Shown here: positions 1-53,264 of the stretch, one piece after another
How positions within the stretch are numbered: the first letter of the stretch is position 1
Layout of the letters: each line of letters begins with the position of its first letter
DNA from: a virus
Virus record (IMG/VR): IMGVR_UViG_3300045973_000529
Span: 1 to 64,000 of that record
Length of the DNA: 64,000 nucleotides
Strand: one strand, 5' to 3'
The notes under the pieces: model-generated
Databases searched by the model: none
Seen by the model: only the letters and a program-made list of their open reading frames with translations
Told to the model about the DNA's origin: nothing
Made by a program: the position numbers and the translations under genes

Positions 1-13
1 ACTCGAAGCCCAG

Positions 14-217
14 ATGGTTGATGAGCTACATGTGACCATCGTTCACACCACCTCAGGTGCCGACGTGACACTGCCTTTCGAGCTCGCGGCCTGGAAGCTG
101 TTCATCCTGCATCAGCGCAAGCTGGGCGTGGACTGGGAGATGGTTGATCATCTCCGGCCGACGGTGGTGGACCCCTCGCCCGGCATCGACATCATGGTTT
201 TCAGGAAGCTGAAATGA
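14..217 (+). CDS. Small hypothetical protein, possibly 5'-truncated by the window edge
   Basis: At least 67 residues, ending in FRKLK. The reading frame stays open from base 2 to the first ATG at 14, so the gene may begin before the window; no clear ribosome binding site is visible. It is soluble and mixed alpha/beta in composition, with no motif I recognise. Its stop overlaps the next ATG (ATGA at 214-217), so it is translationally linked to the small membrane protein downstream. Function unknown. Confidence 0.6.
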   Translation: MVDELHVTIVHTTSGADVTLPFELAAWKLFILHQRKLGVDWEMVDHLRPTVVDPSPGIDIMVFRKLK

Positions 218-426
218 AAGCACCATCGTTCATGGCACTGATTGCAATCGGCGGTATTGGTGCTTGCGGTGTGATGTTTGCGGCGCGTGGCCTGGCAGTT
301 GGCGCTGATGTGCATCACTACGAAGCCCCCGCTTCGGCGCCAATGCCCGAGTGTCGTGGCGGGTACCTGATGCTCGGGTCCAAGGCCGTTACAGCACTAC
401 AAGACGGTCGGGCCGTTCGTTGTTAG
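214..426 (+). CDS. Small membrane or secreted protein
   Basis: 70 residues. The first 30 or so form one hydrophobic segment (from MALIAIGGIGACGVMFAARG), either an uncleaved signal anchor or a signal peptide. The rest is short and polar, with two cysteines (ECRGG and the C-terminal RC). It overlaps the upstream gene by four bases and is followed eight bases later by the bactofilin-like gene, so all belong to one operon. No family recognised. Confidence 0.6.
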   Translation: MKAPSFMALIAIGGIGACGVMFAARGLAVGADVHHYEAPASAPMPECRGGYLMLGSKAVTALQDGRAVRC

Positions 427-434
427 GATGCATC

Positions 435-872
435 ATGATCGACTGGACCAACTTCAAACCAAGGACTTCTGTGAAGAACCCATTCAAGCGCGGCGGCTTC
501 GACACGCTCGTTAGCAAGAACACGACCTTCAACGGTGCAGGTGCGCTGATCATTGGAGCGAACGAGACTTGCATCTTCGACGGGAACTTCGTCGGGATCG
601 GCATTACACAAGAAGGTGATGGATCACCGAACAAGACGACCCTGGTCGTTGGCGGTCACATGCGCGCTGAGACCATCACGGTCTCGAATGTCACCATCAC
701 GGGTCGCATTGATTGTGACGTGATTGTTGTCGAAGGGCAGCTCTCCATCAAGGGCGATGCAACCTTGAAGGCCCGGGAGATTCGCTACCGGGCGCTAACT
801 ATCGAAGATGGTGCTGTCGTTCTGGGCCAGATGAACCATCTCGACTACATCTCTGCTGGTGAGCAGACATGA
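435..872 (+). CDS. Bactofilin-like polymer-forming protein
   Basis: 145 residues. From about residue 35 the protein consists of short alternating hydrophobic/Gly repeats (TLVVGGHMRAETITVSNV, TITGRIDCDVIVVEGQ, LSIKGDATLKAREI, LTIEDGAVVLGQM), the signature of the bactofilin (DUF583) right-handed beta-helix, which polymerises into non-polar filaments in bacteria. The start at 435 is preferred because AGGA (425-428) lies six bases upstream; the frame is open further 5' but overlaps the preceding gene. The role in a phage is unknown; cytoskeletal or scaffold use is inference. Another short beta-solenoid protein is the main alternative. Confidence 0.7.
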   Translation: MIDWTNFKPRTSVKNPFKRGGFDTLVSKNTTFNGAGALIIGANETCIFDGNFVGIGITQEGDGSPNKTTLVVGGHMRAETITVSNVTITGRIDCDVIVVEGQLSIKGDATLKAREIRYRALTIEDGAVVLGQMNHLDYISAGEQT

Positions 873-1051
873 AGCGCAGCACTCTGATAGTTCTCGCAAT
901 CACGCTGCTGGCGATCTATCTGGCCGCTGTTCTGGTCTTTCCCGAAGAGGTGCTCCCCAACACCTCGCAGTATCTCATCGGTACTGCTGGTTCCAAGCCA
1001 CTCGTGTGCTTCCTGCACGGTGGCGCGTTTCAAGCGATGCAATGTCGCTAA
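869..1051 (+). CDS. Small single-pass membrane protein
   Basis: 60 residues with an N-terminal hydrophobic segment (residues 5-24, LIVLAITLLAIYLAAVLVF) after a Lys-Arg start, so probably an N-in membrane anchor. The C-terminal part, about 35 residues, has two cysteines. It overlaps the bactofilin-like gene by ATGA. Bactofilins often work with small membrane proteins, so a functional pair is possible but unproven. It is the last gene before the prkA promoter. Confidence 0.55.
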   Translation: MKRSTLIVLAITLLAIYLAAVLVFPEEVLPNTSQYLIGTAGSKPLVCFLHGGAFQAMQCR

Positions 1052-1086
1052 CCCCCGGAATGACGTCTCAACCGTTCGAAACTGTC

Positions 1087-1092
1087 TAGAAT
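1087..1092 (+). promoter_or_regulatory. Candidate sigma70-like promoter (-10 TAGAAT) for prkA
   Basis: TAGAAT lies 52 bases before the prkA ATG in the 93-base gap between the small membrane gene and prkA. No convincing -35 hexamer at 16-18 bases. A GGAG ribosome binding site (1135-1138) precedes the ATG at 1145. Confidence 0.4.
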
Positions 1093-1144
1093 AGAACTTG
1101 AGGCCGTTAGGTCTTCAATTCATCTCAGCCCAAATGGAGTCTAC

Positions 1145-3106
1145 ATGTCAAAGTTGAACCAACTCGCGTCAACCTTCGCTGCGAAGTTCGCAGCTCCGGA
1201 GGTGATGAGCCTCGATGCGTACCTCGATCAGTGCAAGACCGATCGCCTCGTCTACGCCAACGCGGCCGAGCGCATGGTCGCCGCGATTGGTGACCCCGAA
1301 GTGGTCGACACCAGCGAAGACAGCCGTCTGTCCCGCATCCACAGCAACAAGAAGATCCGCGTGTACTCCGCGTTCAAGGACTTCTTCGGTGCCGAAGACG
1401 CCGTCGAGCGCCTGGTCGCGTACTTCCGCCATGCCGCAGCCGGCCTGGAAGAGTCCAAGCAGATCCTGTACCTCAAGGGCCCAGTCGGCGGCGGCAAGTC
1501 GTCGATCGTCGAGCGCCTGAAGACGCTGATGGAGAAGCACCCGATCTACGTGCTGTACGACGCGAACGAACCGGATCCGGAACTGCGCACCTCGCCGGTG
1601 TTCGAATCGCCGCTCGGGCTGTTCAACAAGGACGAGCATGGCGAGCTGCTCTCGACCGAGTACAACGTTCCGCTGAGCTACATCGGGAACACGGTCCTCT
1701 CTGGCTGGGCGCTCCTGAAGCTGCAACAGTTCGGCGGTGACATCACCCGCTTCTCGGTGGTCAAGCTCTACCCGAACAAGGACCGCCAGATCGGCGTGAT
1801 GAAGGTCGAGCCGGGCGACGAGAACAACCAGGACGTTTCGGTCCTCATCGGCAAGACCGATCTGCGCAAGCTCGAGAAGTTCCCGCAGAACCACCCGTTC
1901 GCGTACGCCTACAGCGGCGGTCTGAACCGCACGAACCAAGGCATGATGGACTTCGCCGAAATGTTCAAGGCGAACATCAAGACGCTGAACCCGCTGCTGA
2001 TGGCCACGCAGGAACACAACTACAACGGCACCGAAGCCATTCCGGCGATGCCTTACACCGGCATCATCTGCGCACACAGCAACGAGTCCGAGTGGTTCGC
2101 GTTCAAGAACAACAAGACGAACGAAGCCTTTCTGGACCGTGTGTTCATCGTCGACGTTCCGTACTGCCTGCGCACCGACGAAGAAGTCAAGATCTACGAG
2201 AAGATGCTGAACGGCTCAGCTCTGCGCGACGCCTCCATCGCCCCTGGCACCCTCAAGATGCTGGCCCAGTGGATCGTGCTGACTCGCCTGAAGGAGCCCG
2301 AGAACTCGACGATCTACGCCAAGATGCGCGTCTACAACGGCGAGAACGTCAAGGACACGATGCCGAACGCGAAGCCGTACGAAGAGTACCGCGATCTGGC
2401 CGGCGTGAACGAAGGCATGAGCGGCATGTCAACTCGCTTCGCCTTCAAGGTCATCAGCTCGGTCTTCGATCTGCGCCCTGAAGAACGTGCTGCGAATCCG
2501 GTGGACCTGATGTTCGTCATCGAGGAAGCCATCAAGAAGGAAGCCCTGCCCGATGAGCTGCACAAGAAGTACCTGGCCTTCATCAAGGAATGGCTGAGCA
2601 AGCGGTACTTCGAGTTCCTCGAGAAGGAACTGCGCGCCGCGTACCTCGACTCGTTCAGCGCCTTCGGCCAGAACATGTTCGAACGCTACGTGCTGTTCGC
2701 CGAAGCGTGGATCAGCGACGAACAGTGCCGTGATCCGGAGACTCACGTGCTCCTGAACCGTGACGCGCTGAACGCACGCCTCGAAGAGATCGAGAAGCCG
2801 GCCGGCATCGTCGGTGCCAAGGACTTCCGGAACGAGATCGTGAACTACGTGCTGCGCTACAAGGCCAAGCACGAAGGCCACGCCCCGCGTTGGAACGAGT
2901 ACGAGAAGATCAAGGTCGTGCTCGAGAAGCGCATGTTCTCCGCCACCGAGAACATCATGCCCGTAGTCAGCTTCGGCGCCAAGCAGGACAAGGAAACGGC
3001 TGAGAAGCACGACCAGTTCCTCAAGCGCATGATGGAGAACGGCTACACCGAGAACCAGGTCAAGATCCTGGTGAGCTGGTGGTCTGCCAACAAGAAGGCG
3101 AGCTGA
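1145..3106 (+). CDS. prkA: PrkA-family serine protein kinase (AAA+ type)
   Basis: 653 residues, close to the bacterial YeaG/PrkA length (about 640), and similar along its whole length as far as I can recall the E. coli protein. Walker A is GPVGGGKS at 112-119. Family signatures include KQILYLKGPVGGGKSS, PGDENNQD, YSGGLNRTNQGMMDF, ATQEHNYNGTEAI, AHSNESEW and RLKEPENS. PrkA proteins combine an AAA+ module with a C-terminal kinase-like region, and in enterobacteria act with YeaH in nitrogen-starvation and stationary-phase responses. Here the gene heads a cassette with yeaH and spoVR. Nearly every codon ends in C or G, a stronger bias than in the fibre genes, consistent with high expression or a host origin. 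Confidence 0.95.
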   Translation: MSKLNQLASTFAAKFAAPEVMSLDAYLDQCKTDRLVYANAAERMVAAIGDPEVVDTSEDSRLSRIHSNKKIRVYSAFKDFFGAEDAVERLVAYFRHAAAGLEESKQILYLKGPVGGGKSSIVERLKTLMEKHPIYVLYDANEPDPELRTSPVFESPLGLFNKDEHGELLSTEYNVPLSYIGNTVLSGWALLKLQQFGGDITRFSVVKLYPNKDRQIGVMKVEPGDENNQDVSVLIGKTDLRKLEKFPQNHPFAYAYSGGLNRTNQGMMDFAEMFKANIKTLNPLLMATQEHNYNGTEAIPAMPYTGIICAHSNESEWFAFKNNKTNEAFLDRVFIVDVPYCLRTDEEVKIYEKMLNGSALRDASIAPGTLKMLAQWIVLTRLKEPENSTIYAKMRVYNGENVKDTMPNAKPYEEYRDLAGVNEGMSGMSTRFAFKVISSVFDLRPEERAANPVDLMFVIEEAIKKEALPDELHKKYLAFIKEWLSKRYFEFLEKELRAAYLDSFSAFGQNMFERYVLFAEAWISDEQCRDPETHVLLNRDALNARLEEIEKPAGIVGAKDFRNEIVNYVLRYKAKHEGHAPRWNEYEKIKVVLEKRMFSATENIMPVVSFGAKQDKETAEKHDQFLKRMMENGYTENQVKILVSWWSANKKAS

Positions 3107-3108
3107 TC

Positions 3109-3309
3109 ATGCAAGCGGTCATCAAGTTGATGGGCCGCTTCAATGAGTGGTACGACTCTCTCAAGGAGCCGTACCGCTTCTTGTTTTGCATGGTCGTTCT
3201 CATGGGCTGGATCTTCCCGATCCAGAGCACCAACGAAGTTCTGTGTGACATTGGCGTGACGTGGATGCTCACCACCTGTGCCCTTGCAACATCACGCGTC
3301 TGGAGGTAA
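3109..3309 (+). CDS. Small membrane protein between prkA and yeaH
   Basis: 66 residues starting at the ATG two bases after the prkA stop. It has an amphipathic N terminus (VIKLMGRFNEWYDSLKEP) followed by two hydrophobic stretches (FLFCMVVLMGWIF; CDIGVTWMLTTCALA), suggesting one or two membrane passes. I know of no counterpart inside bacterial yeaG-yeaH operons. Position suggests it could tether or regulate the PrkA/YeaH pair at the membrane; that is inference. Confidence 0.6.
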   Translation: MQAVIKLMGRFNEWYDSLKEPYRFLFCMVVLMGWIFPIQSTNEVLCDIGVTWMLTTCALATSRVWR

Positions 3310-3312
3310 GGA

Positions 3313-4653
3313 ATGGCCGAAAAGCTCCCAACAACGTCGTACATCTTCGTGGACCGTCGCAAGACGGGACACGGGAAGTCGCTCCCCAATCGTCAGCGTC
3401 TGCTGCGTCGCATCAAGGACGCCATCTCGGCCGCCAAGCCCAAGGACATCGACTCTGGTGGTGTCAAGAACATGACGGGTGGTGGCAATCAGTCCATCAA
3501 TCCGGTGAAGGTCGCCAAGCACAGTCTGCATGAACCAACGCTGCACTACGCGCGCAGCACCGGCAAACACGACATCGTGCTGATCGGAAATGATGAGTGG
3601 GAGCGCGGTGACGAGTTCCCGCTCGATGGTGGCGATGGTGAAGGCAGTGGCAATGGTGCTGGCCACGGCAACGAAGATGGCGAAGATGACTTCGTCGTGA
3701 ACGTCAGCCGCGACGAATACCTTCGAGTGTTCTTCGAGGACTGCGAGCTGCCTGACCTGCAGGAAACGCACGAGAAGGACCTGCCCGAGCTGATCCCCAA
3801 GCACGCTGGCTTCCAGAAGTTCGGCAACCCTGGTCAGCTGTCTGTGAAGCGGTCATTCAAGAACTCGCTCGGCCGTCGTCTGGCCTTGACGCGTAGCGCT
3901 CGTGATGAGCTCGAAGAGCTCGAAGAAGAGTACAAGCAGCTGCTGCTCGGCTTCACCGATGCGCCAGACATCCATGCTCGCATGTCGTTCGTCGAGACCC
4001 GCATGCAAGAGCTGCGTGACAAGATCAGCCGCACGCCGTACTTCGAGGAGATGGACCTTCGGTACACGAAGAAGGACCACGTGCTACAGAAGTCAGCCGA
4101 TGCGGTGTTCATCATGATCATGGACGTGTCGGGCTCGATGGACGAAGACAAGAAGCGGATGGCTCGCAAGTTCTTCTCACTGCAGTACGCGTTCATTCAC
4201 AGCAAGTACCCGCAGACGGACCTCGTGTTCATCGCCCACACCGAGGCAGCCGAAGAGCTGACTGAGGAAGAGTTCTTCACGACACGCAAGAGCGGCGGCA
4301 CGATGGTGTCCCCGGCTTACGCGCTTGCGCACAAGATCGTCAAGGAACGGTACGACGCGAATGACACCAATCTGTACCTGTCGCAAGCCAGTGATGGCGA
4401 CAACTGGGACAACGACAATGGTGCGTGCATCACTGAGCTCGAAGAGTCGGGCCTGATCACGAAGCTACGGCACATGAGCTACGCTCAAGTCGGCCAGAGT
4501 TTTGCCAGTGGGTACTCGTCAGTGACCCTCTGGACCGTGATCGAGTCGATGAAGAACACCACCAAGAAGATCTCGATGGTGAAGATCAATGACGACACGG
4601 AAGTGTTCGAGGCCTTCCACAAGATCTACAAGAAAGGCAAGACGAAGAAGTGA
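3313..4653 (+). CDS. yeaH: YeaH/DUF444 family von Willebrand A-type protein
   Basis: 446 residues, similar in length to E. coli YeaH (427). The N terminus FVDRRKTGHGKS...NRQRLLRR is the family signature, followed by an acidic Gly-rich linker (about 104-126). The VWA domain holds a MIDAS-type DVSGSM at 271-276 and the conserved SGGTMVSPA and QASDGDNW blocks. YeaH is the usual partner of PrkA. It starts three bases after the small membrane gene with a very strong ribosome binding site (GGAGGTAAGGA). A 16-base hairpin with GGCGG/CCGCC arms follows the stop. Confidence 0.93.
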   Translation: MAEKLPTTSYIFVDRRKTGHGKSLPNRQRLLRRIKDAISAAKPKDIDSGGVKNMTGGGNQSINPVKVAKHSLHEPTLHYARSTGKHDIVLIGNDEWERGDEFPLDGGDGEGSGNGAGHGNEDGEDDFVVNVSRDEYLRVFFEDCELPDLQETHEKDLPELIPKHAGFQKFGNPGQLSVKRSFKNSLGRRLALTRSARDELEELEEEYKQLLLGFTDAPDIHARMSFVETRMQELRDKISRTPYFEEMDLRYTKKDHVLQKSADAVFIMIMDVSGSMDEDKKRMARKFFSLQYAFIHSKYPQTDLVFIAHTEAAEELTEEEFFTTRKSGGTMVSPAYALAHKIVKERYDANDTNLYLSQASDGDNWDNDNGACITELEESGLITKLRHMSYAQVGQSFASGYSSVTLWTVIESMKNTTKKISMVKINDDTEVFEAFHKIYKKGKTKK

Positions 4654-4659
4654 TCCCAA

Positions 4660-4675
4660 GGCGGCGTAGACCGCC
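4660..4675 (+). terminator. Short GC hairpin after yeaH
   Basis: GGCGG (4660-4664), six-base loop, CCGCC (4671-4675), just after the yeaH stop and before the next -10 box. No T-run follows, so termination would be weak; it may be an mRNA-stabilising stem. Confidence 0.35.
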
Positions 4676-4689
4676 AGTCACTCGTTCGT

Positions 4690-4695
4690 TATGAT
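4690..4695 (+). promoter_or_regulatory. Candidate sigma70-like promoter (-10 TATGAT) for spoVR
   Basis: TATGAT followed by GCAC, the same downstream context as other -10 boxes in the window. It lies 25 bases before the spoVR ATG at 4721. No clear -35. Confidence 0.45.
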
Positions 4696-4720
4696 GCACT
4701 ATCTCCTCAAGGAACATCAC

Positions 4721-6280
4721 ATGTCTGACAAGCCGCTGATCGTCGACTCTCGTACCGACTGGACCCCTGAACTGCTGCAACGAGCGTGGGTCGAGATCGA
4801 GAAGATCGCCGTCGAGGAACTCGAGCTCCGTCCCGGCATCGAGCTGTACACGAATCAGTTCGAGATCGTCAGCGCCGAGCAGATGCTCGATGCGTACTCG
4901 TCCATCGGTCTGCCAGTGCACTACAACCACTGGTCGTTCGGCAAGGACTTCATGCAGCAGTCCAAGCAGTACGAGAAGGGCCGTATGGGTCTGGCATACG
5001 AGATGGTCATCAACTCCAATCCGTGCGTCAATCTCCTGATGGAAGAGAACCTCGCGTACATGCAGGTCATGGTGATGGCGCATGCCGGTGTTGGTCACAA
5101 TGCCGTGTTCGCGAACAACGTGTACTTCAAGGAGTGGACACAAGCCGGCTCGATCATCGACTACATGATGTTCGCTCGCGACTACATTCAGCGCTGCGAA
5201 GAAACGTACGGCCCTCGTGAAGTCGAGCAGGTCCTGGATGCCGCGCACTCGTTGGCCAGCCATGGCATCGACAAGTTCAAGCGCAAGCATCGCCCGAAGC
5301 TCTCCGAAGAGCAGCGCCTGAAGAAGCTCATGGCCGAAGATGAGCGCCGCCAGCGCGAGCTCGACATCATCATGAAGCGGACAACCATCGTCGATGCTGA
5401 CGAGAAGGCCTTGTCACTGGACGAAGAGGACTTCATGGAGGAGGATGAAGAGAACCTCCTGTACTACATCATGAAGAAGAGCCCCAATCTCGAGCGTTGG
5501 AAGCGCGAGATTCTGCGCATCGTGTACAAGGTGAACCAGTACTTCTCGCCCCAAGGGCTGACGAAGACGTTGAACGAAGGCATGGCCTCGTTCTGTCACC
5601 TGTACATCATGGAGCGACTCGAGGACAAGGGCATCATCACCAGCGACGCGTACATGGCATTCTTGGCCAGCCATTCGGGCGTGATCTACCAGCCGACGTA
5701 CAAGAGCAAGCACTACAGCGGCCCGAACCCGTACGCCCTCGGCCTGGCGATTCTGCAGGATGTGCGTCGGATCTGTGAAGGCGGGCACTTCGAACACAAG
5801 TCCAAGGGCAGCAAGTGGATCCCAATCACCGAAGAAGATCGCCGCTGGTTTCCTGAACTGATCGGCCGCCGTTGGCAGGACGTGATCAAGGAAGCCTGCT
5901 TCGAGCATCGTGATGACTCGTTCATCATGCAGTACTTGTCACCGAAGGTGATCCGCGATCTGAAGCTCTTCACGGTCTCGATCGAGTACGGCGATGGCGA
6001 CACGTCAGGCATGCACAATCCGATTGCGGCGACTGCCATCGTGTCGGAGATCCATGACGACATCGGGTACAAGGCGATTCGCAATGCTCTGGCTCGATCG
6101 AAGGAACGTGTGAACTACGTGCCGCAGATCAGCGTCAAGGGTGCCGATCTTGAAGGTGACCGGACGCTGTACCTCGAGTACACGCCGTACATGGACCGTG
6201 AGCTCGACGAAGACGATGCTGCTGAAGTGCTGTCGTACCTGGATACGCTGTGGGGGTACAAGGTCCAGCTCAGCGCGTGA
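4721..6280 (+). CDS. spoVR: SpoVR/YcgB family protein
   Basis: 519 residues, matching bacterial SpoVR/YcgB (about 510). Recognisable blocks are GLPVHYNHWSFGKDF, YEMVINSNPC, ENLAYMQVMVMAHAGVGHN, EGMASFCHLYIM and NPYALGLAILQDVRR. SpoVR proteins co-occur with PrkA and YeaH in bacteria, are linked to spore cortex formation in Bacillus, and have no established biochemical activity. The start at 4721 is chosen over the upstream in-frame ATG at 4691 because AAGGA (4709-4713) lies seven bases before it. It completes the prkA-yeaH-spoVR cassette. Confidence 0.94.
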   Translation: MSDKPLIVDSRTDWTPELLQRAWVEIEKIAVEELELRPGIELYTNQFEIVSAEQMLDAYSSIGLPVHYNHWSFGKDFMQQSKQYEKGRMGLAYEMVINSNPCVNLLMEENLAYMQVMVMAHAGVGHNAVFANNVYFKEWTQAGSIIDYMMFARDYIQRCEETYGPREVEQVLDAAHSLASHGIDKFKRKHRPKLSEEQRLKKLMAEDERRQRELDIIMKRTTIVDADEKALSLDEEDFMEEDEENLLYYIMKKSPNLERWKREILRIVYKVNQYFSPQGLTKTLNEGMASFCHLYIMERLEDKGIITSDAYMAFLASHSGVIYQPTYKSKHYSGPNPYALGLAILQDVRRICEGGHFEHKSKGSKWIPITEEDRRWFPELIGRRWQDVIKEACFEHRDDSFIMQYLSPKVIRDLKLFTVSIEYGDGDTSGMHNPIAATAIVSEIHDDIGYKAIRNALARSKERVNYVPQISVKGADLEGDRTLYLEYTPYMDRELDEDDAAEVLSYLDTLWGYKVQLSA

Positions 6281-8560: not shown

Positions 8561-11307
8561 CACTTGTTCTCCAGTGCATTGACGCGGGCAAGCAGCGCCT
8601 TGTTCTGCGCTGACAGATCCTTGATGGCTTCAATCAGCAGACCAACCATGTTGCCGTATGCGACAGAGAGAGTTTCACCCTCCTTCACCGCCTCTGGCAG
8701 AACAGCTTGGACTTCCTGAGCAATGACGCCAGTTGACCGCTTGTTCGTGTACTTATCGTCGGTGTCAGTGCGAACGAAAGTTACACCCCGAAGAGCTTCA
8801 ACCTTGGACAGCGCATCAGGAATCACTTGCACATCCGTCTTGATGCGTGCGTCAGAGAACGCGGTCACGTCACCTGCGACTGTGAACCCACCTGTCGATG
8901 GGTTGAAGGACATCTTCGTCGAGCTGATCTTCTGTGGAAGATTGCCAGTGGTCGTTGTCACCCAAGTAGGATAGACGGTTGCGTTCGTGGTGGTGTCATC
9001 CGTGATGCCTGTGTTCGTGGCATTCGTCGCGTTCGTGGCTGAAGTGGCACTTGTTGCTGACGTGGCGCTTGTTGCTGTTGACGCGTTGCCAGTGAGAGCA
9101 CCAACAAAGGTCGTCGACGTGACTGAGGTCAACCCTGCGATGGTTGTGACTGTTCCACCAAGCGACACAGCTGTCGATCCAATGGTCACTGAGCTGTTCG
9201 TCAACGCGGCATTCGGGATGGCAGTCAGTGAGGCACCTGAACCGGCGAAGGTCGTTGCTGACAAGACACCTGTGGATGGCACGAAGGACAGCTTCGTGGA
9301 GCTGACCTTGATTGGATTATCGCCCGTGTTCGTGCCAACCCACGCAGGGAAGACTGATGTTGCGGTCGCTACGTCGTTCGTGACGGCGCTGTTGTCAGAG
9401 TTTGTCGCGTTGCTTGCATTCGTGGCATTGCCAGCCGTCAGCGATGCCGCTGTGCCAGTCAGACCGGTGCCGGCACCGGTGAAGGAGGTCGCAGAGAGAA
9501 CACCAGTCGATGGATTCAACGAAAGCTTGGTTGAGCTGACCTTCTGTGGAAGATTGCCAGTCGTTGCCGTCACCCAGGTAGGATAGACGACAGCATTGGT
9601 CGCCACATCATCAGTGATCGCGGTATTCGTGGCGGATGTTGCTGAAGTGGCGCTTGTTGCAGTGGTGGCGGATGAAGCGCTACCTGTGATGCTGATGCTC
9701 CAGGTGCCAGATGCGCCAGTACCGGTCAGTGCCGGTGCAAAGCTGTTGTAGTTCCCTGAGTGCAGAATGGTCTGCCAAGAACCCCACGTCGTATCAATGC
9801 CCGCACGCAGCTTCATCACTGGGGTTGCAGTGCTATTTGCAGCAACTGGATTGAAGGACAGCTGGTATGATGGATCACCTGTAGATGCAGTGGTGCCGAG
9901 CCACGGAGCAATGGTGACGAGTCCCGTGTACGTGCCAGTGTTGCCGAACAGGTTCGAGTTCTTGAACTCGGCAGCAATCACGTTGCCGTAGGTGTTCGGT
10001 GCCAGATCCACTGAGCGAGAGCCAGTTGTCGCGATGGCGGAAGTGCTAGCCAAGAATGCGGTGCCATCAGAGAACTGCAACACGTTTGACTTCGAAGAGG
10101 TCGTTGCGGTTGTTGCCGAGGTTGCAGAGGTAGCTGAAGTTGCGTTCCCGGTGAGAGCGCCAACAAAGCTTGTCGACGTGACCGAGGTCAACCCCGCCAG
10201 TGTTGTTGATGTTCCGCCCAACAGGATTGCAGTTGTACCAATCGTGACATCACCACCGCCTGCCAGCGCCGTGTTCGGAATGCCCGTGAAGTTCGTGCCT
10301 GTCAGCGTCGGAGTAGATGACCAGTTCGGAACACCAGCCACAACGGTGAGGACCTGACCAACCGTTCCAATTGTGCGATACGCCGTAGCATTTGCACCAG
10401 TTTGGTATGGCAGATCGCCGCTGACACCACCAGCAAGATCAGCTGCCAGGGTTGCATTGCCGACAGTCAGTGATGACGCAGTACCCGTCAGTCCAGTACC
10501 TGCACCCGAGAACGCGGAGGCTGTGAGGGTTCCTGTTGATGGGATGAATGTCAGCGCGGTCGTCGTCTTGATGGCTTGGTTGCCGCTTGAGTTCGATGCC
10601 ACCCAGGTTGGGTACACTGAGGTTGCAGTTGCTGAGTCGTTTGCGGTGCCGACGTTCGTGGCGTTGCCAGCCGTCAGCGATGCCGCGGTGCCACTGAAGT
10701 TCGTGCCAGTAATTGTCGGCGTCGTGGTGTACGCTGGTGTTGTACCACCAACCAACACACCGGTACCAGCGGCGAGCATTGCGGTCGTATTCAGGGCGGT
10801 CTGATAGTGGAGTGAACCAGCAGCGCCACCCACAACGTTCGTTGCCAGGGATGCAGTACCCGTCAGAGCAGCAGTGATGGTGCCAGCAGTGAAGTTCCCT
10901 GACGCGTCACGCGCAACGATCGCTGAAGCGGTGTTTGCATTGGTCGCTGTAGTTGCGCTATTTGGGATAGACGTCAGCGATGCACCTGAGCCAGAGAATG
11001 TCGTGGCAGTGACTGTGCCTGTGACGCTCAACGCCGTCAGCCCCGTGAAGGACGTGACTGCAGCGCCAAGAGCAACTGCAGTAGAGCCAATGGTGACTGA
11101 CGAGCTCGTCAGCCCAACGGTGATTGAACCAGCGCCGTTCGTGATCGTGATGCCAGTACCCTGTGTCAGAGTACCTGCTTGAAAGTCGCTGTTCGTCGTG
11201 TTGCCGATGAGCAGCTGTCCGTTGGTCGGTGCAGCATTGTCGTACAGTGAGATTGACCCACCGAGCTTAATGCCATTCTTGACCTTGAAGTCTTGATTCG
11301 TTGCCAT
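8560..11307 (-). CDS. Tail fibre with C-terminal Peptidase_S74 chaperone
   Basis: 915 residues. The C terminus (about 815-915) is an intramolecular chaperone of the S74 type: AFSDARIKTDV, STGVIAQEVQAVLPEAV, then a coiled coil LSAQNKALLARVNALENK. In this family the domain trimerises the fibre and cuts itself off at the Ser of SDxRxK. The body has three copies of a VTIGSTAVALG/GLTSVTS module and four copies of a module like YPTWVTxTTGNLPQKxSSTK, both shared with the next fibre gene. The N terminus (NQDFKVKNGIKLGGSIS) is the baseplate-proximal fibre start seen in T4-like phages. Preceded by a GGGAA ribosome binding site; no own promoter seen. Confidence 0.85.
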   Translation of the reverse strand: MATNQDFKVKNGIKLGGSISLYDNAAPTNGQLLIGNTTNSDFQAGTLTQGTGITITNGAGSITVGLTSSSVTIGSTAVALGAAVTSFTGLTALSVTGTVTATTFSGSGASLTSIPNSATTATNANTASAIVARDASGNFTAGTITAALTGTASLATNVVGGAAGSLHYQTALNTTAMLAAGTGVLVGGTTPAYTTTPTITGTNFSGTAASLTAGNATNVGTANDSATATSVYPTWVASNSSGNQAIKTTTALTFIPSTGTLTASAFSGAGTGLTGTASSLTVGNATLAADLAGGVSGDLPYQTGANATAYRTIGTVGQVLTVVAGVPNWSSTPTLTGTNFTGIPNTALAGGGDVTIGTTAILLGGTSTTLAGLTSVTSTSFVGALTGNATSATSATSATTATTSSKSNVLQFSDGTAFLASTSAIATTGSRSVDLAPNTYGNVIAAEFKNSNLFGNTGTYTGLVTIAPWLGTTASTGDPSYQLSFNPVAANSTATPVMKLRAGIDTTWGSWQTILHSGNYNSFAPALTGTGASGTWSISITGSASSATTATSATSATSATNTAITDDVATNAVVYPTWVTATTGNLPQKVSSTKLSLNPSTGVLSATSFTGAGTGLTGTAASLTAGNATNASNATNSDNSAVTNDVATATSVFPAWVGTNTGDNPIKVSSTKLSFVPSTGVLSATTFAGSGASLTAIPNAALTNSSVTIGSTAVSLGGTVTTIAGLTSVTSTTFVGALTGNASTATSATSATSATSATNATNATNTGITDDTTTNATVYPTWVTTTTGNLPQKISSTKMSFNPSTGGFTVAGDVTAFSDARIKTDVQVIPDALSKVEALRGVTFVRTDTDDKYTNKRSTGVIAQEVQAVLPEAVKEGETLSVAYGNMVGLLIEAIKDLSAQNKALLARVNALENK

Positions 11308-11328
11308 TTGAGTTCCCTATCCCTCAAG

Positions 11329-14300
11329 TTAGACCGTCATTGAGACGGCATAGACCTTCACGGTCTTCGTGGTGGCAGCTGTCGCAGTGAACTGCAGGCT
11401 CAGCGTGCCGGTTGTGATCGATGCATCGAACGTGCCGAGTGCTCCATTGGTGCTGACTTCGCCGTACTCCGTCTTGAACACTGTCGCTCCATTGTGGATG
11501 AGCAGAATCTCAACCGCGTGGTACTGAGAGTTCGTGGTGTCGGTGACTTGAACGAGGTACTTCGCAGTACGGTAAGTGGCTGTTGCGAAGGATGCAATGG
11601 TGGTTGCAGTTGTGGTAGTGACCGCAGTGCTTGCCGTGTCGAGGAGCGCATTCGAGTCAATCGTCAGCGCACCAGTTGCTCCACCAGCAGTGGACACCGC
11701 GTCAGTAATACCGTACCCGGCGAGCGTCGTTGGATTGGTACCAGCCGTGACGAGACCCTTGGCATTCACGGTCACCGAGGTGTACGTACCAGCGGTCGCC
11801 ACCGTTGCGAGAGTCAGCGCTGCAGTGACGTTTGCTGAACCACTGAAAGTCGTTGTCCAGGTGGCGTCGCCGGTGATGCTGATAGACCGTCCAGTGGTGA
11901 GGGCTGCAGCTGTTGTTGCAGTCGACGCATTGCCAGTCAAGGCACCGACAAAGGCAGTCGACGTCACCGAAGTCAGACCAGTGAAGGCGGTGACTGCAGC
12001 ACCGAGAGCGACCGCGGTAGAACCAATGGTGACAGAGCTGTTCGTCAGTGCAGTGTTCGGAATGCTCGTCAGTCCTGCACCAGAACCAGTGAATGACGTT
12101 GCCGACAAGACACCAGTGGATGGCACGAACGAGAGGCTCGTTGAAGATGTCTTCTGTGGAAGATTGCCTGTAATCGCAGTCACCCACGTTGGATAAACAG
12201 CAACAGCAGTCGCCACATCGTTCGTGATGGTGGTGTTCGTTGCAGCACCAGCCGTCAGTGACGAAGCGGTACCAGTCAGACCAGTGCCGGCACCAGTGAA
12301 TGAGGTCGAAGTCAGCACCCCGGTTGATGGCACAAACGTGAGCTTCGTGGAGCTGACCTTGATTGGATTGTCACCTGTATTCGCACCAACCCAAACAGGG
12401 AACACAGCAGTTGCCGTAGCAACGTCGTTCGTTACCGCGCTGTTGTCCGCATTCGCGGCATTGCCAACCGTCAGTGAGGAAGCAGTACCAGTCAGACCGG
12501 TGCCGGCACCAGTGAAGGAGGTTGCAGAGAGGATGCCGGTCGATGGCACGAATGTGAGCTTCGTGGAGCTGACCTTCTGTGGCTGGCCGCCTGTATTTGA
12601 CGTCACCCACGTTGGGAACATCGTTCCAACGGCAGTCGTGTCATCCGTGATCGCGGTGTTCGTTGCGCTGGTCGCTGTGGTTGCTGTGGCAACCGTGCCA
12701 GTCACCGCGATCGTCACGTTTCCTGTTGCGCCAGTCACCGAGATGTTTGTGCCGGCAGCCACTGACAGAACGCCGGTGTTCGAGATCACGTTCGATGACA
12801 GACCAATACCTGTGCCTGCTGAGTATGTACCAGCGCCAGAGAACTGGGTAAACGTGATTGGATCCACACCCATCGTGATGTAGTCGTTTGGCACGCCGGT
12901 GCCGACTGAATTCATCACCCACTGGGTACCAGCAAGAGAGCCCTCTTGAACGTAGGTGAGTTCACCCGCGCTGATTTCCGAGGTTGGGGAACCGTCGAAG
13001 TCGGTAGCACGCGTAAGGATCCACGGAGCGGTACCTGCAGCCCCGACGTTGGTCACCACGTAGATGCCGTTCTGCAATGACGTTGGTTGGTCCTTGACCA
13101 ACAGGCGTGAACCAACAACCAAGCCAGTATACCCGCCAATCGTGCCAAGCGCCACATTCGTTGTTGCAGTCAGGGTTGCACCTGCACCGCCAGTACCGTT
13201 CACATAGGTCGCGGTCAGAGCAGTTGCCGTTGCCGTTTCGCAGGCGCCGTGGATGTTGATACCAGCAGCCACGTTGTCAACGTACTGCTTGGTTGCGGCG
13301 TGCATCGCTGAAGTTGGATCGGCGTTCAACGACAGGGAGCCTGTCATCGTGTCGCCAGCAACGTTCACGTACGTGCCGTCAACCAAACCAGTGATGTCAG
13401 CTGCAACCACCGCGGTCGTCGCAGTGACGAGACCCTTGGCGTTTGTGGTCAGCTTGTGGAAGCCAGTGGTGACTGGTGCAGCGTTCACGGTTGCAAGGGT
13501 CAGCGCTGCGGTGACGTTTGCCGAGCCGTTGAAGGAAGGCGAAGTCCAGGTGGCATCGCCAGTTGCAGCGATGGTGCGACCGGTCGCAAGGGTCGTTGCA
13601 GTCGACGCATTGCCAGTCAAGGCGCCAACGAAGGCGGTCGAGGTGACAGAGGTCAAACCAGCGAAGGTCGTGACAGCAGCACCGAGTGCAACATCAGTCG
13701 AGCCAATGGTGACTGACGAATTCGTCAGCGCTGCATTTGGAATGGCAGTCAGTCCAGTACCGGCACCAGTGAAGGAAGTCGCAGAGAGGACACCTGTCGA
13801 TGGCACGAACGTGAGCTTCGTCGAGGTCGTCTTCGCAGCCAAGTTCCCCGTGTTCGCGCCAACCCAGGTTGGGAAGACCGCGGTTGCGGTTGCGGCGTCG
13901 TTGGCAATGGTGACAGTCGATGCGGCGGTTGATGTTGATGCGTTGCCAGTGAGAGCACCGACAAAGGCAGTTGATGTGACGGAGGTGAGACCAGTGAAAG
14001 CGGTGACCGTTGCACCAAGTGCAACCGCGGTCGAGCCGATGGTGACTGACGAGTTTGTCAGCGCTGCATTTGGAATGGCAGTCAACGAGGCACCTGAGCC
14101 TGAGAAGATGGAAGCAGACAGCGTACCTGTTGATGGTACGAATGTGAGCTTCGTTGAGGTCGTCTTCTGTGGCAAGCCGCCTGTATTTGCCGTCACCCAC
14201 GTTGGGAAAACAGCAGTGACAGTTGCCACATCTTCAGTGATGGACGTGTTCGTGGCAGTTGTGGCGGTTGTGGCATTGCCGGACAGGGCACCAACGAAGG

Positions 14301-15906
14301 TCGTTGAGGTGACAGAGGTCAGACCAGCAAAGGTAGCGACCGTTGCGCCAAGCGCAACCGCGGTCGAGCCAATGGTGACTGACGAGTTTGTCAGTCCGGT
14401 GTTCGGGATGGCCGTGATGTTCGCACCCGAAATTGTCGGAGCTGATGACCAAGCCGGAGCAGTACCACCAACAAGCACCTGCGACGAGGTGCCAGCTGCC
14501 GTCAACGCGGTAGCATTCACTGCCGTTTGGTACGGCACAGCACCTGCGACACCACCAGCGATGTTTGTCGAGCGAGTAGCGGTTGACGCGTTACCGGTCA
14601 GTGCACCCACAAAAGTGGTGGATGTTACTGAGGTGAGACCCGCAACCGTGGTAACCGTGTCACCAAGGTTGATGACAGTGCTACCAAGCGTGAAGGAGCT
14701 GGTGAACGCAGTAGATGGGATGTTCGTCAGCCCAGCGCCAGAACCAACGAACGCAGTTGCTGTCAAGGTGCCAGTCGAAGGATTGAAGGACATCTTCGAG
14801 GAGCTGACCTTCTGAGGATTGTTGCCGGAGACAGCCGTCACCCAGGTCGGGTACACAGACGCGTTCAATGTCGTGTCGTCTGTGATTGCAGTGTTCGTTG
14901 CGTTTGACGCCGTGCCAGTCAGCGCGGCAGTGATGGTGCCAGCGGCGAAGTTCCCCGAAGCATCACGAGCAACGATAGCCGAAGCCGTGTTCAGATTGGT
15001 TGCGGTTGAGCCAAGCGTCAGGGTGTTGCCAACGTCGGCGTATGTCGCAGAGATACCACCGCCGTTCACGATGAAACCAGCGACCGTGTCTTGAACCGCT
15101 TCAGCAAAGTCCGTCAGCGACGTTGACGCGATCTGCGCTGTTGAGACACCTGTCACCAACCCCTTGGCGTTCACAGTGATGACGGGGATGAGTGAAGCAG
15201 ATCCGGTCGTTCCGACGTTCGCGTTCACCGTAGCCAGCGTCAAGGCGTCAACGCCGCCATTGATCGTGCCAGTGACATCACCGGTGATCGTGAAAGATGC
15301 AGAGAGAGCAGCAGTGGTGACGGCAGTCACCAACCCCTTGGCATTCACCGTGATGACAGGAATGGTGTTTCCAGAACCAAACGCACCAACGTTCGCGTTC
15401 ACGGTCGCCAGTGTAGTGGTGATTGCAGTCGCACCAGAGCCGGTGATGTCACCCGACAGCGCAACCGACTGATTTCCAGTCAGGTACGTGCTCGTGTCCA
15501 GCGACCAAGTGTTCGCCGCCGTCTTCTTCAGCAGTCCTGACGTGCTCGCGATTGCGGCGATTGCGGACAAGTCAGCATCGAATGCCTGCACATCGGTGCC
15601 AATGACCAATCCGAGAGATGACCGCGCGGTTGCAGCGGTAGTTGCGCCCGTGCCGCCATGCAGGATCGACATCGTTCCTGTGGCATTCGCATTGTCAAGG
15701 TAGTACGAACCCGGTTGATCTTCCAGCAATGAAGATGAACTGCCAATCTGTACCCAGATCGTGCCATTGTAGACATGCAGAGCATCCAGATCGGTGCGGA
15801 AGTACAGCTCGCCAGCGTCTGGAGTAGCTGGGAACGTAGTGCCGGTTGCGATCGACGCGTTCGTGATGACCGAGCCTTCGGTCAGATGCAGGCCGTCGTA
15901 GAGCAT
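11329..15906 (-). CDS. Giant repetitive tail fibre (1,525 residues)
   Basis: The N terminus (LYDGLHLTEGSVITNASI ... GELYFRTDLDALHVYNG) is shared with the 2,674-residue fibre and is probably the baseplate attachment region. The body holds five copies of the SVTIGSTAVALG/GLTSVTSTTFVG module, six of the FPTWVxxNTGxxPxKxSSTK module, and a YVNVAGDTMTGSL element. It lacks an S74 domain. The C-terminal block (KYLVQVTDTTNSQYHAVEIL, TEYGEVSTNGALGTFDA) resembles the C-terminal beta domain of structural proteins of T4-like phages, including cyanophages. An AAGGA ribosome binding site precedes the ATG, with a late promoter at 15933-15940. First gene of a four-gene fibre operon. Confidence 0.85.
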   Translation of the reverse strand: MLYDGLHLTEGSVITNASIATGTTFPATPDAGELYFRTDLDALHVYNGTIWVQIGSSSSLLEDQPGSYYLDNANATGTMSILHGGTGATTAATARSSLGLVIGTDVQAFDADLSAIAAIASTSGLLKKTAANTWSLDTSTYLTGNQSVALSGDITGSGATAITTTLATVNANVGAFGSGNTIPVITVNAKGLVTAVTTAALSASFTITGDVTGTINGGVDALTLATVNANVGTTGSASLIPVITVNAKGLVTGVSTAQIASTSLTDFAEAVQDTVAGFIVNGGGISATYADVGNTLTLGSTATNLNTASAIVARDASGNFAAGTITAALTGTASNATNTAITDDTTLNASVYPTWVTAVSGNNPQKVSSSKMSFNPSTGTLTATAFVGSGAGLTNIPSTAFTSSFTLGSTVINLGDTVTTVAGLTSVTSTTFVGALTGNASTATRSTNIAGGVAGAVPYQTAVNATALTAAGTSSQVLVGGTAPAWSSAPTISGANITAIPNTGLTNSSVTIGSTAVALGATVATFAGLTSVTSTTFVGALSGNATTATTATNTSITEDVATVTAVFPTWVTANTGGLPQKTTSTKLTFVPSTGTLSASIFSGSGASLTAIPNAALTNSSVTIGSTAVALGATVTAFTGLTSVTSTAFVGALTGNASTSTAASTVTIANDAATATAVFPTWVGANTGNLAAKTTSTKLTFVPSTGVLSATSFTGAGTGLTAIPNAALTNSSVTIGSTDVALGAAVTTFAGLTSVTSTAFVGALTGNASTATTLATGRTIAATGDATWTSPSFNGSANVTAALTLATVNAAPVTTGFHKLTTNAKGLVTATTAVVAADITGLVDGTYVNVAGDTMTGSLSLNADPTSAMHAATKQYVDNVAAGINIHGACETATATALTATYVNGTGGAGATLTATTNVALGTIGGYTGLVVGSRLLVKDQPTSLQNGIYVVTNVGAAGTAPWILTRATDFDGSPTSEISAGELTYVQEGSLAGTQWVMNSVGTGVPNDYITMGVDPITFTQFSGAGTYSAGTGIGLSSNVISNTGVLSVAAGTNISVTGATGNVTIAVTGTVATATTATSATNTAITDDTTAVGTMFPTWVTSNTGGQPQKVSSTKLTFVPSTGILSATSFTGAGTGLTGTASSLTVGNAANADNSAVTNDVATATAVFPVWVGANTGDNPIKVSSTKLTFVPSTGVLTSTSFTGAGTGLTGTASSLTAGAATNTTITNDVATAVAVYPTWVTAITGNLPQKTSSTSLSFVPSTGVLSATSFTGSGAGLTSIPNTALTNSSVTIGSTAVALGAAVTAFTGLTSVTSTAFVGALTGNASTATTAAALTTGRSISITGDATWTTTFSGSANVTAALTLATVATAGTYTSVTVNAKGLVTAGTNPTTLAGYGITDAVSTAGGATGALTIDSNALLDTASTAVTTTTATTIASFATATYRTAKYLVQVTDTTNSQYHAVEILLIHNGATVFKTEYGEVSTNGALGTFDASITTGTLSLQFTATAATTKTVKVYAVSMTV

Positions 15907-50595: not shown

Positions 50596-50621
50596 CTATG
50601 CATACCCACCAAGGAGCCAGC

Positions 50622-51251
50622 ATGGACAATCACCTCGCCGTTCAATGTATCGATCGCCAGATCGCTGCCATCTCCCGCCTGCACGCCGTGATCAACACGA
50701 ACGAGTACCACTCAATCCTCAGCGCCGTGACTGCGGTTGCGAAGGATGGGTACAAGCGCCGTGTCATGATCGCAGGGGTCGGCAAGAACAGCAACATCGC
50801 CTCCAAGATCAGCGAGACGATGGCCAGTCTCGGCATCCCCTCGTTCTACCTGAACGTCAGCCACTGCGGTCACGGTGACTTCGGTTTCATCGGCCACGAG
50901 GACCTCATCATCCACATCAGCCGCTCGGGCACGACACGCGAAATGGTCGAGGCGATGAGCCACATCAAGAAGATCCGTCCACAGGTCGTGCAGGTCCTGA
51001 TCCACTGCAAGCCGAACAAGCCAGTGAACAACGATGCCGACATCGAGCTCTTCATCGGCGCAGTTGCTGAAGGCGACGAGTTCGAGCTCGCGCCGACCAC
51101 CTCCACAACCGCGTTGCTCTGTACCCTCGACACGATCTCGGTACAGGTCTCGCACGCCATCGGCTTCAAGCGCCTCGACTTCCTGAAGTTCCACCCGGAT
51201 GGCGCACTCGGTGCGATGCTCAAGGCTGAACAAACCAAGGACACTCAATGA
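50622..51251 (+). CDS. SIS-domain D-arabinose-5-phosphate isomerase-like protein (KdsD/GutQ family)
   Basis: 209 residues, the length of the SIS part of KdsD without the CBS domains. Family features are VMIAGVGKNSNIASKISETM, SHCGHGDFGFIG, DLIIHISRSGTTREM, APTTSTTALLCTLD and FHPDGALGAML, corresponding to the KpsF/GutQ blocks GKSG, HGDLG, SNSGET, PTSSTTA and HPGGALG. The enzyme would interconvert ribulose-5-phosphate and arabinose-5-phosphate. The gene is followed by a zinc ribbon and a nucleotidyltransferase-kinase fusion, suggesting production of an activated pentose. Start at 50622 is set by AAGGAG. Sedoheptulose-7-phosphate isomerase is the main alternative. Confidence 0.82.
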   Translation: MDNHLAVQCIDRQIAAISRLHAVINTNEYHSILSAVTAVAKDGYKRRVMIAGVGKNSNIASKISETMASLGIPSFYLNVSHCGHGDFGFIGHEDLIIHISRSGTTREMVEAMSHIKKIRPQVVQVLIHCKPNKPVNNDADIELFIGAVAEGDEFELAPTTSTTALLCTLDTISVQVSHAIGFKRLDFLKFHPDGALGAMLKAEQTKDTQ

Positions 51252-51421: not shown

Positions 51422-51603
51422 TCTACGCAACACCAGTGACCGAGCACGGCGAGCGGTCAGTGCATCTCATCTGCACGAACGAGGAAATCGGCATCATCTC
51501 AAATGAGCTCGGTGAGCACGCATTCTATGCGCATGACACAGTGCCGCTTACACTCGACCTGCTCGAAGCTGTTGCCAACTTTCTGAGGACACTCAACGTA
51601 TGA
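51418..51603 (+). CDS. Hypothetical protein
   Basis: 61 residues, mixed strands and a C-terminal helix (LTLDLLEAVANFLRTLNV). ATGA overlaps on both sides. No family recognised. Confidence 0.6.
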   Translation: MIYATPVTEHGERSVHLICTNEEIGIISNELGEHAFYAHDTVPLTLDLLEAVANFLRTLNV

Positions 51604-53264
51604 ACCTCGTCATTGTCGCTGGGGGCCTTGGCTCCCGCCTAGCCCCGCTCACAAACTTCATCCCTAAGTTCCTCGTGAACATTGGGAAGGAGACCGGGTT
51701 CGTGAAGATGTTGGAATACTGGCGTGAGTACCAGCCCGAGTCGATCACTGTGATCGTCCACAGCCGGTACAAGGGCTTGGTGCAAGCGTACTTCGATCTG
51801 TATTTCAAGAACGATCCACTGATGAAGACATGGTCGGATGACGGTGAAGAAATCCGTACTCCGTTCATCATCAAGACGGTCGACGAAGCGAACGGCTCGG
51901 CGCACGCGATCATGACGACTTGCGGTGATCATCTGAACAAGCAGCCAGTCCTGTTCACTTGGTGTGATGTGATTCCAGGCGAGTCCTTCGACATCGAGGA
52001 ACTGAACCACGGCGGCGCCTTCGCGTTCACGAACTATGACTACCCGAACAGGTACGACCTGGTTCAACCAATGGTGGCGCCGGATGCGCCAAAGCTCGGC
52101 TGGGCTGACCGTGTGCCAGCCATTCGGTCAGATGGTCGTGGTGGTCTGTTCGGCGTGTACTACGTCAGCACCTTCGAGAAGAAGCCCTTCACCGATGGTC
52201 AGGACTTCGTCGAGCTGCTTGGGCGGTACTCGCACCGTGGCTTCGTGTACGAGGTCAAGATGCCGAGCATTGTCGACTTCGGCGACATGCCAAAGCTCGA
52301 GCGTGTTCGCTCAACAGCCGATGCAGCTCGGTCCTTCAACTCGGTCAAGATGCACGGTGACCTCGTGCTCAAGAGCGCGCTGACAGCACAGGGCGAAGGT
52401 CTCATCAAGCGTGAAGTCGCTTGGTACAGCGAGCTCGATGCGATGCAATCGACTGTCCGTCGGCCGAAGCACTGGGCGAGCTCTGATGGCACGTCGTTTG
52501 TGATGTCGAAGGTCAAGGGCGTACCAGTCTGGGAACAGTGGTCGAAACTCGACGATGACGGTCGTGCAATGGTGCTGTCACGCATCTTCGAGCAGCTCGA
52601 TACGCTGCACTGCCACAAACGCGAGGTCGGTACAGTCCAAGTCCAGACCGACATTCGTGTCGAGGCGTACGACAAGCTCATTGCCAGGTACGACGAGATC
52701 AAGCCGATGATCGATGCCTTCGGCCCAGTGCAGTGGGTGAACTGCCACAAGCTCGAGTGCCTCGATCCGAAGGTCACGATCAAGCGCTTGTACGGGGAGT
52801 TGGCAAAGCAGTACAGCACGTCACTGCACAGTTTGATCCACGGTGACCTGCAGATGTCGAACACGATGATCGATCCTGACACCCTTGAGGTGACGCTGAT
52901 CGATCCACGTGGGTACTTCGGCAAGAGCACCACCTATGGTTGCGCTGATTACGACATCGCGAAGCTGTTGTACTCGCTCAGCGGCTACGATCTGTTCAAC
53001 TACTCGAAGGACTTCCATCTGATCCACAATGGGCTGGGCAGCGTTGGCGACGGGAGTCAACAGTGGTTCATCCAGTTCGACATCCCAACACCCAACACGG
53101 GCGGATGTCAGCCGATCTTCGAGCAGCGCTTCACGCGTGTTCACCAGCTCTGGTTGGCCGTGATCTGGATCGGGCTGGCGCAGTACATCAAGAACGACCC
53201 AGTGAAGTCGGTTGCGGCGCACTACCACGGTTTGGCCATGGCCGAAAGGATCCTTGCATCATGA
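51600..53264 (+). CDS. Bifunctional sugar nucleotidyltransferase - phosphotransferase (kinase) fusion
   Basis: 554 residues. Residues 1-240: a nucleotide-sugar pyrophosphorylase-type domain with VIVAGGLGSRLAPLTNFIPK (GG-G-R-L-P-K signature) and FTWCDVIPG as the metal-binding part. Residues 245-554: an APH/choline-kinase-like fold with LIHGDLQMSN (catalytic Asp416, Asn421) and TLIDPRG (Asp435). The protein could phosphorylate a small substrate and couple it to NTP, for example arabinose-5-phosphate to an NDP- or CMP-sugar. Linkage to the isomerase by ATGA overlaps supports one pathway. Alternative: a choline- or capsule-type cytidylyltransferase-kinase acting on surface polysaccharide. Confidence 0.82.
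   Translation: MNLVIVAGGLGSRLAPLTNFIPKFLVNIGKETGFVKMLEYWREYQPESITVIVHSRYKGLVQAYFDLYFKNDPLMKTWSDDGEEIRTPFIIKTVDEANGSAHAIMTTCGDHLNKQPVLFTWCDVIPGESFDIEELNHGGAFAFTNYDYPNRYDLVQPMVAPDAPKLGWADRVPAIRSDGRGGLFGVYYVSTFEKKPFTDGQDFVELLGRYSHRGFVYEVKMPSIVDFGDMPKLERVRSTADAARSFNSVKMHGDLVLKSALTAQGEGLIKREVAWYSELDAMQSTVRRPKHWASSDGTSFVMSKVKGVPVWEQWSKLDDDGRAMVLSRIFEQLDTLHCHKREVGTVQVQTDIRVEAYDKLIARYDEIKPMIDAFGPVQWVNCHKLECLDPKVTIKRLYGELAKQYSTSLHSLIHGDLQMSNTMIDPDTLEVTLIDPRGYFGKSTTYGCADYDIAKLLYSLSGYDLFNYSKDFHLIHNGLGSVGDGSQQWFIQFDIPTPNTGGCQPIFEQRFTRVHQLWLAVIWIGLAQYIKNDPVKSVAAHYHGLAMAERILAS

Follow-up and report, generated by a model that had tools for sequence, protein, structure and literature searches.

An intact prkA-yeaH-spoVR stress operon adapted to a clade of large T4-like phages

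The stretch of DNA analysed here (the window) comprises the first 64 kb of the 190,499-base virus record IMGVR_UViG_3300045973_000529 from IMG/VR. Close to its beginning lie three adjacent genes on the same strand, prkA, yeaH and spoVR in that order, whose products make up a widespread bacterial stress operon with no agreed biochemical activity (Table 1). A first-pass annotation, made from the letters alone, described the three genes as whole, full-length and with intact motifs, and this was borne out in our analysis: the coordinates were exact, no internal stops were present, the key residues were kept and the Pfam matches covered nearly the full profiles. PrkA matched AAA_PrkA with residues 21-388 (E 7.6e-151) and the PrkA C-terminal domain with residues 392-645 (E 1.5e-61), YeaH matched positions 1-417 of the 418 in the DUF444 profile (E 6.2e-116), and SpoVR matched SpoVR (E 1.4e-128) and SpoVR_C (E 6.6e-17). 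What had been called a phage gene order is, however, the order usual in bacteria. The membrane protein said to be inserted in the cassette exists as an open reading frame (ORF) starting at ATG 3109, with one or two modest hydrophobic stretches; since no relatives of it were present in any of the loci compared or in IMG/VR, it was rejected as a conserved component of the system. No sigma-70-like promoter match was found upstream of the window prkA.

Table 1. Genes of the cassette in the window and of the same cluster in related phage loci (L numbers)
Feature	Position	Strand	Remarks
DHFR, C-terminal end	2..217	+	truncated by record start; first visible gene of conserved cluster
Bactofilin-like (polymer-forming) protein	351..872	+	likely start ATG 435
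prkA (yeaG-type AAA+ ATPase), 653 aa	1145..3106	+	Pfam AAA_PrkA and PrkA
Orphan ORF, 66 aa	3109..3309	+	hydrophobic stretches; stop within yeaH ribosome-binding sequence
yeaH (DUF444), 446 aa	3313..4653	+	C-terminal vWA domain, complete MIDAS
spoVR, 529 aa	4691..6280	+	Pfam SpoVR and SpoVR_C; candidate metal-site protein
ORF after spoVR, 103 aa	6505..6816	+	common to four sister loci L004, L005, L007, L020
Probable alarmone hydrolase	L022:5381-6073		same place in L002, L003, L005, L006, L008, L009, L011, L020
Ro60/TROVE-vWA gene	L003:1633-3471, L022:1991-3610, L007:2622-4301		and in ten more records

The features expected of working proteins were found in each member of the trio. In PrkA, the Walker A motif GPVGGGKSS and the acidic residue E272 were kept, and both were invariant in the alignment. 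The solved PrkA structures (9xip, 9xiq and 9xir) hold 30 chains in three entries, which suggests that the protein is an oligomer. In YeaH, the metal ion-dependent adhesion site (MIDAS) was complete (DxSxS-T-D, formed by D271-S273-S275, T330 and D361) and invariant across phage and bacterial copies. The C-terminal part of the YeaH model is a vWA domain, for which Foldseek returned vWA and I-domains (E 2.6e-7 to about 1e-5), among them the MIDAS domain of Rea1/MDN1, that is, parts of AAA+ machines; the N-terminal part was modelled with low confidence. SpoVR kept H131, H136, E179, D183, H186, E296 and H303, which are invariant or near-invariant, and in its model (pLDDT 83) these seven His, Glu and Asp residues lie on three helices, suggesting a metal site.

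To place the trio among its relatives, we used a tree of 84 PrkA proteins, with bacterial copies drawn from a genome search and from plasmids. The window PrkA belonged to a 19-member phage clade (clade A; SH-aLRT 100) outside the bacterial group, on a stem of 0.45-0.5 changes per site, and the trees of SpoVR and YeaH recovered the window clade with support of 100. The best bacterial identity to the window PrkA in 249 Pseudomonadota genomes was 61%, and sister phages reached 85%. The comparison with host copies proposed in the first-pass annotation set the window trio in one phage clade apart from the bacterial genes. The most diverged member of that clade was YeaH, with a stem of 1.19, as if its client, or the surface that would meet the client, had changed in the phage. 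Between the window and L002 the ratio of nonsynonymous to synonymous substitution rates (dN/dS) was 0.18 for PrkA, 0.29 for YeaH and 0.19 for SpoVR; all three proteins are therefore kept by purifying selection. At PrkA residues 187, 269 and 286 (window numbering), the P, E and T of the bacteria and of all twelve distant homologs compared are replaced by G, D and M in clade A.

Clade A is not the only phage lineage with these genes. Two further phage groups of the near type (L019/L021/L024 and the huge phages) joined the PrkA tree elsewhere, and two distant phage groups, one of them ordered yeaH-spoVR-prkA, formed further branches among bacterial PrkA, as did a Thermus phage. A single clade of all near-type phage PrkA was rejected by the approximately unbiased (AU) test (p 0.005), and union of the window clade with just one other phage group was not rejected (p 0.09 and 0.14). 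The trees suggest that the other phage lineages obtained the operon separately, with pairwise unions still compatible. In a FastTree phylogeny of 114 PrkA proteins, the 23 bacterial sequences fell into two small clades within a set of 87 viral sequences, the window and the huge phages; here the bacteria were Pseudomonadota only, a sampling too narrow to give the direction of transfer.

The three genes are also retained together over a wide range of viral contigs, as the neighbourhood search proposed with the first-pass annotation made clear. With the window PrkA as query, IMG/VR yielded 44 loci, 41 of them with the full trio; the other three (L010, L021 and L026) lie on contigs shorter than 8.3 kb whose ends are close to the genes. 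With a SpoVR alignment at least 577 relatives were found. The full trio was present in 74 of the 79 SpoVR-centred loci newly read, always on one strand and in the order prkA-yeaH-spoVR, and the remaining five reach a contig edge or stop close to one. Family members also occur in deposited phages, namely Thermus phages, four uncultured huge phages and Enterobacter phage LAU1, and the trio proteins match three PHROGs families (phrog_22605, phrog_19072 and phrog_35217) that have no annotated function. In the published gene list of the cultured Ralstonia jumbo myovirus RsoM2USA, ORF30 is PrkA and ORF28 is SpoVR, on one strand (PMC8504454); the 1.36 kb that separate them, enough for ORF29, are consistent with a yeaH, and the list does not treat PrkA and SpoVR as a system. 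The cassette is thus neither isolated nor undescribed in phages; the first-pass annotation knew of no well-described role for it there.

The viral status of clade A is strong. Outside the cassette the window is T4-like, with long tail fibre genes, topoisomerase II subunits, a T4-type beta-glucosyltransferase and helicases, and its T4-type topoisomerase was present in all seven tested clade-A records above 140 kb (147-368 kb); L019, which belongs to another lineage, was without it. By topoisomerase, the closest cultured relatives are Pseudomonas phage pf16 (45%), Xanthomonas phages X1 and XacN1 and Stenotrophomonas jumbo phages, so the host is likely to be proteobacterial. For many SpoVR loci outside clade A the viral status rests on the IMG/VR classification; among the other SpoVR loci, a Terminase_6N match was found in only 6 of 22 tested records. 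A chimeric assembly or contamination was ruled out by the phage clade, by synteny kept across some 15-18 separate phage contigs and by an even G+C content (0.54-0.60 over the cassette and adjoining genes).

What is new in this analysis is the conserved neighbourhood of the clade. The order of the clade-A cluster is Ro60/TROVE, probable (p)ppGpp hydrolase, dihydrofolate reductase (DHFR), bactofilin-like gene, prkA, yeaH and spoVR. DHFR lies upstream of prkA in 15 loci including the window, whose fragment is homologous to an ORF located 0.7-1.6 kb upstream of prkA in the 14 others; the L007 copy matches Pfam DHFR_1 (E 8e-31). The bactofilin-like gene stands at the same place in 11 sister loci and in the window, where its Pfam Bactofilin match (E 2.7e-5) is slightly under the cut-off, with the L007 copy above it. 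Downstream of spoVR, clade-A loci sometimes have an ORF like the 103-residue one of the window, and its L020 copy weakly resembles DUF3135.

About 2-3.5 kb upstream of prkA, nine clade-A loci encode a protein of about 220 residues with invariant H..HD..ED..D..N. Its family profile, searched against the PDB, found only HD-domain and alarmone hydrolases, the human MESH1/HDDC3 (3nr1) and then bacterial ones (E 8e-4 to 0.015), and its Pfam HD match was weak. The protein thus has the HD...ED...D...N motifs of small alarmone hydrolases and similarity to known members, with weak E-values, and is a probable (p)ppGpp hydrolase. In IMG/VR, 15 loci with this family hold the trio, or whatever part of it the flank reaches; about 20 further large viral contigs have related copies and no trio in the stretch read. 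Further upstream, 13 of 16 records have the Ro60/TROVE-vWA gene, beside which no Rfam match to a Y RNA was found in four loci. The window record starts inside the DHFR gene and is probably a genome fragment; judging by its subclade, its phage is likely to have both the hydrolase and Ro60.

Homing-endonuclease-like ORFs have repeatedly invaded the spaces between the operon genes. They follow prkA directly in L002, L016, L018, L020 and L024, where they look GIY-YIG-like by eye and have no Pfam match, and in L005 two of the DUF7487 type occupy 10017-11690 and 13802-15394. In the same locus (L005:11651-13704) yeaH is split into an N part of 228 residues and a C part of 237 residues with the vWA domain, separated by a 0.65-kb stretch with a 181-residue ORF; a group I intron was rejected as the cause, there being no Rfam match.

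Elsewhere in the window, a full-length alanine dehydrogenase is encoded at 57732-58829. This gene is rare in phages: 11 deposited phage records had any match, the clearest being Synechococcus phage S-N03. It was considered as a nitrogen-related part of the cassette and rejected, as it was present in none of 16 related phage records. The product of 51600-53264, which weakly matches nucleotidyltransferases and APH-type kinases, and an arabinose-5-phosphate isomerase homolog (50598-51251) may possibly belong to a sugar-nucleotide pathway. No RNA elements were found in the window.

The window trio is genuine, whole and adapted to phages, and it is widespread; it represents a variation on an operon known from bacteria and no new kind of system. 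It shares with the bacterial prkA-yeaH-spoVR operon, annotated for example in Comamonas, Legionella, Mesorhizobium and Sphingobium, the three families, full length, order, strand and key residues, and differs from it in forming a phage clade with PrkA identity of at most 61%, in its phage-fixed substitutions and in being set in the DHFR, bactofilin-like and alarmone hydrolase cluster. In E. coli yeaG and yeaH stand together and ycgB lies elsewhere; under nitrogen starvation the single mutants in yeaG or yeaH and the double mutant resemble each other in phenotype (PMC4664914), which fits one machine. PrkA is also present in Thermus phages phiYS40, MN1 and Lalka and in huge phages LR745206, LR756502 and LR756504, several of which have a vWA protein and SpoVR homologs too; however, the Thermus-type PrkA is only about 25-28% identical to that of the window and occupies separate branches of the tree, and the order in MN1 is vWA-spoVR-prkA. 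The unexpected part is that the three genes were co-retained over several phage lineages, and in a conserved neighbourhood related to stress physiology.

An AAA+ ATPase with a MIDAS-bearing vWA partner, as in PrkA and YeaH, is also the composition of NorQ/NorD, RavA/ViaA, CbbQ/CbbO and Rea1/Midasin. NorD carries the same DxSxS-T-D set (PMC13036017), and the client of NorQD is a metalloenzyme (PMC13036017, PMC9976466). The simplest reading of the trio would thus be an AAA+/vWA remodelling pair with SpoVR, possibly metal-bound, as partner or client. In this model PrkA would form the AAA+ ATPase ring, and YeaH would bind the ring via its vWA domain, holding the client with its MIDAS metal, as NorD does for NorQ. 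SpoVR would be the dedicated third component, either a client that is remodelled or loaded with metal or an effector steered by PrkA-YeaH. During infection the phage-encoded machine could then play, under phage control, the part that the host operon plays in stationary phase or nitrogen starvation, and cells under starvation or stress would remain capable of sustaining a jumbo phage through its slow cycle. The probable alarmone hydrolase in the same cluster of sister phages may lower (p)ppGpp at the same time. We give about an even chance to this reading, in which an ancestor of a group of jumbo T4-like phages took up the stress operon long ago and the operon was domesticated to keep starved hosts productive.

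Several observations weigh against it. PrkA reaches MoxR models only below threshold (bpMoxR, E 9e-4, under the Pfam cut-off), unlike the ATPases of the MoxR pairs, its partnership with YeaH is predicted, and an AlphaFold 3 analysis placed a PrkA in AAA+ clade III (PMC13001217); the biochemistry of PrkA itself is disputed. The SpoVR model had no significant Foldseek match in the PDB, and its candidate metal site is deduced solely from the invariant residues. The link to starvation, suggested in the first-pass annotation, is consistent with the probable (p)ppGpp hydrolase beside the trio in sister phages, but neither the hydrolase nor Ro60 was found in the window's own record, and the hydrolase is absent from L007 and the L012-L018 subclade, bar one weak distant match.

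Alternatively, the trio may be a remodelling or takeover machine directed against a host target, for instance inactivating a stress or defence protein, and no copy of the starvation function. The strong divergence of YeaH, the likely client-binding part, in comparison to PrkA would be expected if the target had changed, and P187G, E269D and T286M are fixed in the phages at PrkA sites invariant elsewhere. However, all the MIDAS and SpoVR core residues are kept, SpoVR itself is retained and a PADLOC search matched no defence model, and we regard this explanation as unlikely. The copying of a signalling state, raised in the first-pass annotation, would make PrkA a Ser/Thr kinase acting in the infected cell, in line with its family name, with early kinase reports and with YeaG phosphoproteomics papers. 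The conserved catalytic features here are nevertheless those of an AAA+ ATPase, in an architecture that resembles an AAA+/vWA remodelling machine, and recent work (2026; PMC13001217) detected neither kinase activity nor autophosphorylation in purified B. anthracis PrkA, whose protease activity was negligible and whose C-terminal part is without a kinase P-loop. Signalling is therefore a weak explanation, which we would give only a slim chance.

A little less improbable, yet still quite doubtful, is that PrkA or SpoVR acts as a protease. The PrkA profile touches Lon AAA domains, but just in the P-loop region, and the top structural match of SpoVR is dipeptidyl peptidase III (DPP III), which is not significant (Foldseek E 0.57). 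The zinc motif of DPP III is HExxGH; the HAxxGH of SpoVR (H131, H136) has the same spacing and is without the catalytic Glu, and a DPP III-like gluzincin metallopeptidase was rejected on this motif and for want of a significant PDB match. Zhang 2022 (as cited in PMC13001217) reported protease activity of B. subtilis PrkA, which the later work put down to a contaminant. That the genes are mere passengers, either recent functionless host DNA or an assembly or binning error, we consider scarcely credible. Such cases do occur: Enterobacter phage LAU1 (MN688132) has yeaG-yeaH at its genome end (1-3308) that groups inside Enterobacteriaceae and, unlike the window, looks like recently acquired host DNA. 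For the window this explanation is refuted by the divergence from all bacterial copies found, the phage clade, the low dN/dS and the conserved phage synteny.

Returning to the domesticated stress operon, a bolder and more tentative version would see in the (p)ppGpp hydrolase, Ro60, DHFR, bactofilin-like gene and trio an anti-dormancy island of jumbo phages that jointly holds starved hosts productive, the operon being repeatedly exchanged between phages and bacteria and much of its diversity being viral. If it were true that such an island counters stringent-response dormancy, the multiplication of large, slow phages in starved cells, which predominate in nature, would become easier to understand. 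For the bacterial operon, the phage trios, with conserved core residues and divergent surfaces, mark what is indispensable, namely all three parts, the MIDAS and the His/Glu/Asp set of SpoVR, and they turn the question of PrkA-YeaH-SpoVR function into a problem of phage genetics.

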